From: Caldifarciminota bacterium
GTDB taxonomy: Bacteria; Hydrothermota; Hydrothermia; S141-80
Direction: 5' to 3'
Assembly: GCA_015490255.1 (NCBI GenBank)
Contig: WFYF01000288.1
Location: 1 to 9,342 of the forward strand
DNA length: 9,342 nucleotides
Part shown: piece after piece, positions 2,896 through 4,276 of the stretch
Layout of the letters: the number at the start of each line of letters is the position of its first letter
Numbering within the stretch: position 1 is the stretch's first letter
Translations under genes and position numbers: made by a program
Notes under the pieces: model-generated
Database searches by the model: none
The model's input: the letters and a program-made list of their open reading frames with translations, nothing else
What the model was told of the DNA's origin: nothing

Positions 2896-2927
2896 CCCCA
2901 CGTGATTCCTCGCGGAATCACGTGGGG
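2896..2927 (+). repeat. Palindromic unit 1
   Basis: Perfect 14-bp stem: CCCCACGTGATTCC (2896-2909) pairs with 2914-2927 across a TCGC loop. The tail ACCCCGGAAATAAACAC follows. It begins 6 nt after the SDR stop codon and could protect or terminate that transcript. Confidence 0.85.
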
Positions 2928-2945
2928 ACCCCGGAAATAAACACT

Positions 2946-2972
2946 CCATGAAATTCCGAGGGAATTTCATGG
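2946..2972 (+). repeat. Palindromic unit 2
   Basis: Perfect 12-bp stem: CCATGAAATTCC (2946-2957) pairs with 2961-2972 across a GAG loop. The tail GGACCCGGAAAAACATA then CCCCGGAAAGAACA follows. The inner stem differs from unit 1 on both arms in a matching way. Confidence 0.82.
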
Positions 2973-3003
2973 GGACCCGGAAAAACATACCCCGGAAAGA
3001 ACA

Positions 3004-3037
3004 CCCCGCGACGTTTCCGTACGGAAACGTCGCGGGG
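3004..3037 (+). repeat. Palindromic unit 3
   Basis: Perfect 34-nt palindrome: CCCCGCGACGTTTCCGT (3004-3020) followed directly by its reverse complement (3021-3037), foldable as a 15-bp stem with a GTAC loop. The tail GCCCCGGGAAACATAT follows. Thirteen bases of its left arm (GCGACGTTTCCGT) recur exactly in the copy at 6104-6116. Confidence 0.87.
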
Positions 3038-3052
3038 GCCCCGGGAAACATA

Positions 3053-3086
3053 TCCCACGGGGTTTTCTCAGGAAAACGCCGTGGGA
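3053..3086 (+). repeat. Palindromic unit 4
   Basis: TCCCACGG (3053-3060) pairs with CCGTGGGA (3079-3086), and GTTTTC (3062-3067) pairs with GAAAAC (3072-3077), with a single G/G mismatch between the two helices. The tail ACCCAAAAATATCCCGG is a diverged version of the family tail. Confidence 0.78.
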
Positions 3087-3116
3087 ACCCAAAAATATCC
3101 CGGTTACATCGCCCCT

Positions 3117-3153
3117 ATCCGGAAACACTGTGGAGGCCCTGGAAAATATACCC
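3117..3153 (+). repeat. Decayed palindromic unit 5
   Basis: TCCGGAAACACTGTGGAGG, then CCCTGGAAAATATACCCTG, aligns by eye with the right arm and tail of the unit at 4088-4117 (GGAAACACCGCGGGGG, then CCCCGAAAACATACCCCG). A matching left arm is not recognisable, so this is probably a half-unit next to the HepT 3' end. Confidence 0.55.
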
Positions 3154-3166
3154 TGCTGAGGCCGGA

Positions 3167-3565
3167 TTACGTGATTCGCGGGGCGATCTGGCGGAGGAAA
3201 GCCCGGAAATCCTCAAGATGGTCCAGAAACGCGTAAAGCCGGGAGACGTCCACGAAGGCATATTCGTGCACGAGGCGGTTGCGCAGGCCGACCATGCCCC
3301 TGAGGCGCGCGGCAAGGTCCGGCGTCACGTACCCTGCGTGTTCCAGAAGGTCCACACAGGAGGCATAGGTTTCCGGCGTCCCGATCCTGTCCCGAACAAT
3401 CAGGTGGCAGCTGATGTCCACCACCATCTGGACGGCTTCAAGGAGCCCATAGCGCAGCGCCCATTCAAGATAGGGATTGCTCCGGACATCCTCCAGGGTA
3501 TACCGCTTCCGGAATTGTTCCAGCTGGACAAGGTGTGTTTCCAGACGCTGGAGTTTTTGCCTCAC
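3167..3565 (-). CDS. hepT: HepT-like RNase toxin (HEPN, DUF86)
   Basis: A 132-aa all-helical HEPN protein of usual length. The catalytic RX4HXY motif is intact: R95-N-R-L-V-H100-E-Y102 inside MVGLRNRLVHEYAFVD. Other family positions are visible at YLEWALRYGLLEAVQMVVDIS (32-52) and the conserved Gly/Asp region. In characterised systems HepT cleaves RNA (tRNA has been shown as a target) and is inactivated when the partner MntA adds AMP to the Tyr of RX4HXY, here Y102. The start is the GTG at 3563-3565, which overlaps the mntA TGA (GTGA) and has GGAGGG about 7 nt upstream. It is therefore co-translated with the antitoxin gene before it. All key residues are present, so the toxin looks functional. 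The TAA stop lies about 14 nt from the decayed repeat unit, and the gene is convergent with the SDR operon. Confidence 0.93.
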   Translation of the reverse strand: MRQKLQRLETHLVQLEQFRKRYTLEDVRSNPYLEWALRYGLLEAVQMVVDISCHLIVRDRIGTPETYASCVDLLEHAGYVTPDLAARLRGMVGLRNRLVHEYAFVDVSRLYAFLDHLEDFRAFLRQIAPRIT

Positions 3566-3993
3566 GGGCTATCCCTCCGGAGGCCCAGGCGCCGGTGAAA
3601 GGCTTCATCAATCCAGCGCCGCAGGGGGGCGGTGTCCAGATAGTGGAGGATGGTGCGGTGCTGAAAGGTCTCCAGGGCTTTCGGGTTGTGACACACCACC
3701 AGCATCCCGGAGGAAAGGATCTCAAACGCCAGGCGGGGGCGGGTCTCGGGAAGGCGGTTGAGTTCCACGAGGTCCACGGGTCTTCCGGTGTGCTGTTCCA
3801 CCGCGGCGCTGATGCGCCCCTGCTCCAGGAGATCCACAGGTGTTGCGAAATGGATGGCCAGATCCAGATCGCTCCAGGGGAAGAGGGTTCCCCGGGCGGC
3901 CGAACCAAACAGGAACGCAAAATCCACGACATCTCCCCACGGGTCCAGAGACCTCCGGATGACCTGAATGATTTCGGTTTGCGGTGCAGTCAC
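3562..3993 (-). CDS. mntA: MntA-like nucleotidyltransferase antitoxin
   Basis: A 143-aa minimal nucleotidyltransferase. The canonical GSX10DXD motif is G30-S31 to D42-L-D44 (FGSAARG, then SDLDLAI), and a third acidic residue is D74 in VDLVEL. In known MntA-HepT systems this enzyme adds AMP to the HepT tyrosine and so neutralises it. I place the start at the GTG 3991-3993, preceded by GGAAGGA 5-6 nt upstream. The longer GTG at 4072-4074 is rejected because it lies inside a repeat hairpin and upstream of the promoter's -10, and its extra 27 residues do not resemble the family. The gene stops on TGA 3562-3564, overlapping the hepT start. C-terminal residues 107-140 (ALETFQHRTILHYLD, RWIDEAF) form the usual helical tail. 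It is likely active. Confidence 0.92.
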   Translation of the reverse strand: MTAPQTEIIQVIRRSLDPWGDVVDFAFLFGSAARGTLFPWSDLDLAIHFATPVDLLEQGRISAAVEQHTGRPVDLVELNRLPETRPRLAFEILSSGMLVVCHNPKALETFQHRTILHYLDTAPLRRWIDEAFHRRLGLRRDSP

Positions 3994-4035
3994 GATTCTT
4001 CCTTCCCCGGGCGCTTGAACAGGTGCTCCGGATGA

Positions 4036-4063
4036 ATTATACGGCACAGATGGCGAATGAAAA
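4036..4063 (-). promoter_or_regulatory. Promoter of the mntA-hepT operon
   Basis: On the minus strand TTTTCA (4063-4058) is followed by a 16-nt spacer and a perfect TATAAT (4041-4036). Transcription would begin near 4029, giving a ~35-nt leader before the GTG at 3993 and excluding the upstream GTG at 4074. The -35 abuts the palindromic element at 4069-4102. Confidence 0.65.
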
Positions 4064-4068
4064 TTATG

Positions 4069-4126
4069 CCCCACGCTGTTTCCTTACGGAAACACCGCGG
4101 GGGCCCCGAAAACATACCCCGAAAAA
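4069..4126 (+). repeat. Palindromic unit 6 with full tail
   Basis: CCCC-x-CG-x-TGTTTCC (4069-4083) pairs with GGAAACA-x-CG-x-GGGG (4088-4102) with two mismatches and a TTAC loop. The complete conserved tail GCCCCGAAAACATACCCCG follows, then AAAAAC. It is in the same orientation as the 2896-3153 array and lies just upstream of mntA, so the toxin-antitoxin pair is bracketed by copies of the element. Confidence 0.78.
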
Positions 4127-4215: not shown

Positions 4216-4276
4216 CCCCAAGAGATTGCCTTCGGAAATCCCTTGGGGTAGAACCCTCCCCCGTCAAGGGGGAGGG
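4216..4276. repeat. Double hairpin, second palindrome family
   Basis: The first hairpin pairs CCCCAAG (4216-4222) with CTTGGGG (4242-4248) and GATT (4224-4227) with AATC (4237-4240), with one mismatch. The second is a perfect 9-bp stem, CCCTCCCCC (4254-4262) with GGGGGAGGG (4268-4276), and a GTCAA loop. The sequence and tail differ from the units above. This type of CCCTCCCCC/GGGGGAGGG palindrome is common in bacterial intergenic DNA. No T-run follows. Confidence 0.65.

Follow-up and report, generated by a model that had tools for sequence, protein, structure and literature searches.

A tandem hairpin array at a gene end belongs to a dispersed family of fixed-end hairpins with copy-specific stems

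The array in the window and its relatives in the same genome

The window, by which we mean the whole 9342-bp stretch of DNA that was analysed, is a contig (C288) of a 1.70-Mb draft genome that consists of 353 contigs and is 77.9% complete. Its positions 1-27, at the contig start, resemble the Nextera transposase adapter and presumably are untrimmed adapter. Between 2896 and 3086, four hairpins follow each other head-to-tail, a fifth, decayed one is found at about 3110-3150, and the array occupies the convergent gap between a short-chain dehydrogenase gene and a HepT-like gene. Further copies, clear or weak, lie elsewhere in the window.

2153-2890, + strand: short-chain dehydrogenase gene, immediately upstream of the array and in the same orientation
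2896-2927, + strand: hairpin unit 1, with a stem of 14 bp, a loop of 4 and the tail ACCCCGG, 5 nt past the stop codon at 2888-2890
2944-2974, + strand: hairpin unit 2, with a stem of 14 bp that includes a T.G near its base, a loop of 3 and the tail ACCCGG
3004-3037, + strand: hairpin unit 3, 15-16-bp stem, tail GCCCCGG
3053-3086, + strand: hairpin unit 4, 15-bp stem including one G.G, tail ACCCAA
3110-3150, + strand: decayed fifth unit, of which mostly the tail GGAGGCCCTGGAAAATATA remains (10 bits with the covariance model; E value within the window, 0.13)
3167-3565, - strand: HepT-like gene, downstream of the array and convergent with it
4069-4102, + strand: further clear copy, in a divergent gap upstream of a nucleotidyltransferase gene
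4216-4248, - strand: weak diverged copy, 15.9 bits
6084-6131, - strand: weak diverged copy, 14.6 bits
8811-8842, - strand: further clear copy, oriented opposite to both flanking genes

The HepT-like gene adjoins the nucleotidyltransferase gene (window 3167-4074), with hairpins on either side, and the two genes probably form a toxin-antitoxin pair of the HepT/MntA type. Also, CCCTCCCCCGTCAAGGGGGAGGG at 4254-4276 is a second dispersed palindrome, present at eight places of the genome with at most two mismatches, at six of them exactly.

RNA folding of the segment 2885-3165 gave -134.9 kcal/mol, compared to -90.5 ± 5.1 kcal/mol for 200 shuffled sequences, none of which reached so low a value (z = -8.8). 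The tail pattern GGGGNCCCCGGAAAACATA, with up to three mismatches allowed, is matched four times in the window when 0.02 matches would be expected, and none of 200 shuffles reached four. Given these two results, the array is not accounted for by chance. An earlier sequence-only reading of this DNA had described a tandem array of eight hairpins with fixed flanks and with inner stems that are matched exactly by their partner arms. The array is real and the inner stems that were named are correct; however, the segment in question contains four intact units instead of eight. Pairing is inexact in some units, because unit 2 carries the T.G and unit 4 the G.G, and the tails are not fixed and differ between the four units (ACCCCGGAAATAAACA, ACCCGGAAAAACATA, GCCCCGGGAAACATA, ACCCAAAAATA).

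The array units belong to a dispersed hairpin family of their own genome, in which about 50 more copies are present. A covariance model built from three copies yielded 101 matches at E ≤ 10 in this genome, where both strands of one hairpin are counted if both match. Alignment of 53 oriented copies, hand-picked for carrying the tail (tail-less hairpins and the L058 copies resembling L053 were left out), gave the consensus (C)ACCCC-stem-GGGG(A/G)CCCCG, with stems of 12-17 bp, loops of 2-7 and 49 distinct left arms. In the stretches of this genome that were read, a script recovered 52 oriented copies, none of them inside genes called by our own codon-usage script, and 743 of their 759 arm pairs are Watson-Crick, the hairpin score of the copy-finding script being more tolerant of G.T than of other mismatches. 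A comparison with Rfam, for the window and 15 loci, gave no match above the gathering score at any hairpin.

Once the copies are aligned, covariation is strong. Neither of the two outcomes that would have overturned the sequence-only reading, a lack of more copies or of covariation, was observed. In the set of 21 copies that have a 34-nt hairpin, 96.5% of the cells are paired, compared to 80.8 ± 1.2% after shuffling, 11 pairs instead of 5.7 are changed on both sides, such cells number 61 instead of 18.6, and the covariation score amounts to 0.502 instead of 0.177. None of 500 shuffles reached any of these four values, and a fifth measure, further pair types, was reached by 157 of the 500. Many readers would see in covariation the proof that an RNA is functional, and it speaks for the possibility that the hairpins serve as functional RNA elements where mRNAs end, be it as a stabiliser, a processing site or a modulator of terminating ribosomes, with selection on the transcript maintaining the pairing. 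In the same direction point the imperfect pairs at stem positions 6-11 in this genome, which among 44 distinct stems comprise five G.T and no A.C.

Fixed-end hairpins in other genomes and phyla

A search of 41 genomes gave 105 matches in the own genome, two in the sole genome of the same family and eight in genome G022. Within the phylum, the fixed-end pattern was found in 12 of 147 genomes, namely G000, G001, G022, G018 (a single match) and eight genomes of one other family, in which up to 106 matches per genome occur. In a collection of named genomes, the pattern is present in at least 118 stretches from many groups. When matches were counted in 28 genomes, 16 of them, including WOR-3/Stahlbacteria, Acidobacteria, Firmicutes and the actinobacterium Leekyejoonella, had 20-170 matches, compared to 0-2 for a reversed-pattern control. 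Seven genomes had 1-16 matches (control 0-1), and counts in the remaining five, two Thermus among them, were not above the control. The counts for the 28 genomes refer to matches and not to exact copy numbers, because some matches are nested. Shared record lengths and positions show that G043, G049 and G051 occur a second time as G144, G142 and G140, respectively, and are therefore not independent of them; two G140 stretches share 2 kb, an overlap that was left in, and L106 and L107 lie outside the studied loci.

It might be argued that palindromes from different phyla are unrelated and resemble each other only through a G+C-rich composition and the search pattern. Inner stems and loop lengths do vary by lineage, the ends are fixed by the pattern itself, and the five genomes at control level would fit such a view. 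However, the 16 genomes whose counts stand far above their controls would not, the same CACCCC and GGGGACCCCG ends are found in G022, whose stretches read are A+T-richer, and a CA before and a G after the hairpin, both outside the counting pattern, recur in G059 and G044. We consider it improbable, then, that the palindromes are unrelated, and infer that the matches in distant phyla form one family, be it by descent or by a common recognised end.

One 134-kb IMG/VR contig (L227, L229, L231, L232) is matched by the fixed-end hairpin pattern at five places. Look-ups of plasmids and phages were without result.

Gain, replacement and rewriting of hairpins

At the nuoD-nuoE junction of Nocardioides-type genomes, a hairpin is present in 2 of 19 readable junctions and missing from the other 17 (58 of 59 genomes were matched and 30 loci fetched, of which 19 were read and 11 lacked the nuoD end), and L174 adds a third one that is filled. 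Each of the three junctions has a different hairpin, and the ATGA stop/start overlap is found on both sides of each hairpin, being doubled at all three sites. As a general property, target-site duplication was not upheld by a control with re-paired flanks: in four sets, flanking direct repeats numbered 16 (control mean 10.95), 5 (3.91), 21 (16.98) and 3 (2.95), in no set beating the control, and we therefore do not claim target duplication as a rule.

In the WOR-3-type family, queries with 98 clusters from four genomes led to 21 rows, which were reduced by hand to 14 orthologous sites. The other genome is empty at four of these sites, and both genomes are occupied at ten. Doubly occupied sites carry identical hairpins in three cases, hairpins with one or two base differences in the shared unit in another three, and unrelated stems in four; in addition, the array has grown at two of the ten, where one genome possesses extra units. 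Furthermore, one open hypF gene (L409) contains two in-frame hairpin insertions, at 471-502 and 960-1020, and in a relative one of these sites is empty and the other differently filled. A precedent for the replacement of stems may be the inverted-repeat-replacing transposition of IS1272, in which a hairpin site is targeted and replaced as well; according to PMC5678879 it is an insertion sequence that replaces the hairpin there, and we take this only as a lead. Sites that are empty in relatives, interiors that are replaced or inverted, and units in frame inside hypF all argue against an RNA element preserved by selection at mRNA ends.

When arms were re-paired between copies, pairing at positions 5-12 dropped from 0.786 to a mean of 0.392 in the WOR-3-type set (500 shuffles, maximum 0.450); in G059 it dropped from 0.875 to 0.720 (maximum 0.780), and in G044 from 0.703 to 0.664 (maximum 0.694). 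Duplicated stretches of the own genome contain six arm pairs that changed on both sides, one between L036 and L040, two between L041 and L044 and three between L035 and L037, and one further L036/L040 hairpin has three one-sided changes. Between L035 and L046, two loops are reverse-complemented with unchanged arms, and at one orthologous WOR-3-type site an interior of 23 nt is exactly inverted. A copying mechanism that generates palindromes had been among the suggestions of the sequence-only reading. It now gains direct support from loops that are flipped, from the inverted interior and from arms that changed in pairs between close copies; selection on structure, the other cause suggested there, may also apply.

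Template switching at inverted repeats is reported to cause arm homogenisation and spacer inversion (PMC8604942), and it has also been put forward as a process by which hairpin stems arise and are maintained (PMC8794818). Because the both-side arm changes and the flips match this published signature, we prefer template switching, and not slow compensatory selection, as the process that would keep the pairing. The quasipalindromes treated in these reports (PMC8604942, PMC8794818) share arm homogenisation and spacer inversion with the present hairpins; they are scattered mutation sites, whereas here a dispersed family of fixed-end repeats displays the signature.

Position 5 of the stem is A.C in 30 of 32 distinct stems of G044, in 65 of 111 of the WOR-3-type set and in 16 of 30 of G059. 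Arm homogenisation alone would erase this mismatch, and therefore something else must hold position 5. Such a fixed A.C in several sets, together with fixed ends that include the odd palindrome GGGGACCCC and with the occurrence of arrays, would be compatible with a candidate array of binding sites that a sequence-specific protein needs and that is retained for this reason. This proposal appears very unlikely to us, for the inner stem, which makes up the larger part of the unit, is not conserved and single copies are common. At positions 6-11, imperfect pairs read on the sense strand were G.T versus A.C in the ratios 8 vs 22 (WOR-3-type set), 2 vs 8 (G044), 0 vs 2 (G059) and 16 vs 14 (Acidobacteria). 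The predominance of A.C over G.T in the first two of these sets (22 vs 8 and 8 vs 2), which is not found in Acidobacteria (14 vs 16), speaks against an RNA element. Strand bias of imperfect pairs was discarded as a proof of folding at the DNA level, the results being mixed between genomes.

Position at gene ends and mobilisation

Twenty copies of the own genome have called genes on both sides, eight of them in convergent, seven in divergent and five in same-direction gaps, the latter with two in sense and three in antisense orientation; the other 32 of the 52 copies have no called gene on one side and mostly lie near contig ends. Three of the convergent cases begin 4-5 nt past a stop codon. 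Convergent gaps account for 35 of the 290 gaps between called genes in G059, a clostridial genome, and hold 17 of its 36 placed clusters. Clusters were counted as sense if the upstream neighbour is on the same strand, a definition for which convergent gaps qualify by construction, and among sense clusters the first hairpin lies at most 15 nt from the stop codon in 12 of 27 (G059), 13 of 20 (G044) and 22 of 50 cases (WOR-3-type set). In the last set, none of the 22 begins farther away than 6 nt, one even overlaps the called gene end, and the next cluster follows at 49 nt. If only same-direction gaps and clusters of uniform orientation are considered, 10 of 14 (G059), 19 of 21 (G044) and 34 of 49 clusters (WOR-3-type set) are in sense. 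In Acidobacteria, 13 of 41 loci were called inside genes, which may be an artefact of the simple gene caller, and these calls were left aside.

Proximity to stop codons and the mostly sense orientation in same-direction gaps of these three sets are what one would expect from RNA elements at mRNA ends; the two sense and three antisense copies of the own genome are not. Intrinsic terminators likewise form a hairpin shortly past the stop codon, but the consensus tail read from our alignment is ACCCCG and contains no T-run. In a few WOR-3-type cases, judged by eye, the unit comes after a G+C-rich hairpin with a T-run of its own, which disfavours a terminator role of the unit in those cases, and units past such an apparent terminator also count against the RNA element. 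Of the transcript-end stabiliser proposed from the sequence alone, the location at gene ends has held, but a function at transcript ends is not borne out by this tail and by these copies. Altogether, we regard an RNA element as rather unlikely, while leaving it more weight than any other alternative discussed here.

The RAYT domain (PF01797) was not detected in the own genome, where its absence is weak evidence because only 77.9% of the genome is covered, nor in 16 of 27 other hairpin-bearing genomes searched; among the latter are G042, G043, G044 and G059 with 79, 126, 57 and 170 pattern matches. The mobilisation by a RAYT that the sequence-only reading had considered is thus not supported, and as a whole its interpretation is supported in part. 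Two other candidates for a universal mover were rejected: a reverse transcriptase (PF00078) occurs in four of ten hairpin-rich genomes and is absent from six, and IS110 (PF01548) occurs in three and is absent from seven, the own genome being among those lacking each.

Like REPs, the hairpins are high-copy, short and mainly intergenic palindromes. With GTAG-tagged REPs, BIMEs and REPINs that depend on a RAYT, as presented in PMC3733652 and PMC6006769, they share that they are short and dispersed, occur singly, paired or clustered near gene ends, and have an unpaired tag at one foot. In contrast to those REPs, the tag here is ACCCCG (CGGGGT on the other strand), with no GTAG at the foot of the 53 aligned copies, in which (C)A precedes and (A/G)CCCCG follows the hairpin, and stems within a genome are almost all different, as seen in the WOR-3-type sets. 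Classical REPs moved by a RAYT, an IS200-like tyrosine transposase, would account for size, dispersion, gene-end location and the fixed unpaired tag, and 11 of the 27 genomes do have PF01797 matches; nevertheless, the missing GTAG tag and the lack of the domain in the own genome and in the 16 others, hairpin-rich ones included, make this explanation the least credible of all. A second type of REP, tagged CGTC, has been reported without a dedicated transposase, its mover being unknown (PMC3733652). According to the same paper, these REPs also are tagged palindromes from several phyla that sometimes lie inside genes, and have stems of 8-9 bp and loops of 4-5; the hairpins studied here have stems of about 9-17 bp (12-17 bp with loops of 2-7 in the own genome), and neither a CGTC tag nor a CCA tail occurs in the 53 aligned copies. 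By their tags, then, the hairpins fall outside both the GTAG and the CGTC superfamilies, and among the literature matches listed, in which subscription journals are thinly covered, no ACCCCG-tagged hairpin family is described.

On balance, we lean towards the interpretation that the array consists of dispersed REP-like hairpins whose ends are fixed (CACCCC...GGGGACCCCG) and whose stems vary by copy. These hairpins are patchy between relatives and often situated within 15 nt of a stop codon; they are likely non-autonomous mobile DNA spread without a RAYT transposase, and their arms are likely kept complementary by template switching during replication. The fixed ends would be what the mobilising activity recognises, gene ends may be frequent because insertion there is tolerated, and the different stems of the window array could result from repeated insertion at one gene end. 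Against this interpretation stand the mobilising gene that was not found, the negative direct-repeat test, the A.C at position 5, the five G.T and no A.C of the own genome, the sense orientation that is not favoured there, and the one-sided changes between L036 and L040. More tentatively, and as a proposal that falls somewhat short of probable, the ACCCCG hairpins could form a large superfamily of their own, the third among tagged palindromes of bacteria, present in at least four phyla and moved to gene ends by an activity other than RAYT. Template switching would continually rewrite and flip their stems and match them again, and strong covariation would arise without selection on RNA. A dispersed family that combines strong covariation with flipped loops would lend itself to measuring the amount of covariation that replication error alone makes, and it poses the question of what moves a RAYT-less palindrome and why its copies are so frequently positioned right past stop codons.

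Some other repeats were encountered near the hairpins. In G022, two CRISPR-like repeat arrays (L100 1035-2544 and L101 3502-5137) have hairpins at their outer ends, and some of these hairpins adjoin truncated repeats. A link between hairpins and CRISPR was dismissed, since the repeated block suspected in the own genome instead precedes RNase P RNA and tRNA genes. The conserved block TTTCGTGCAGATTTTTGATGAGGCAAGGCG occurs in L035 (741-800), L041 (318-350), L044 (1940-1970), L045 (542) and L046 (1252), in three loci upstream of RNase P RNA, tRNA-Lys and tRNA-Arg, and is perhaps a promoter element of stable RNAs. A second hairpin repeat, GCTCCTTT...AAAGATCGCAG, is absent from the own-genome loci scanned and has 36 matches in L364-L423, 19 of them with a CCCC tail at most 25 nt upstream.
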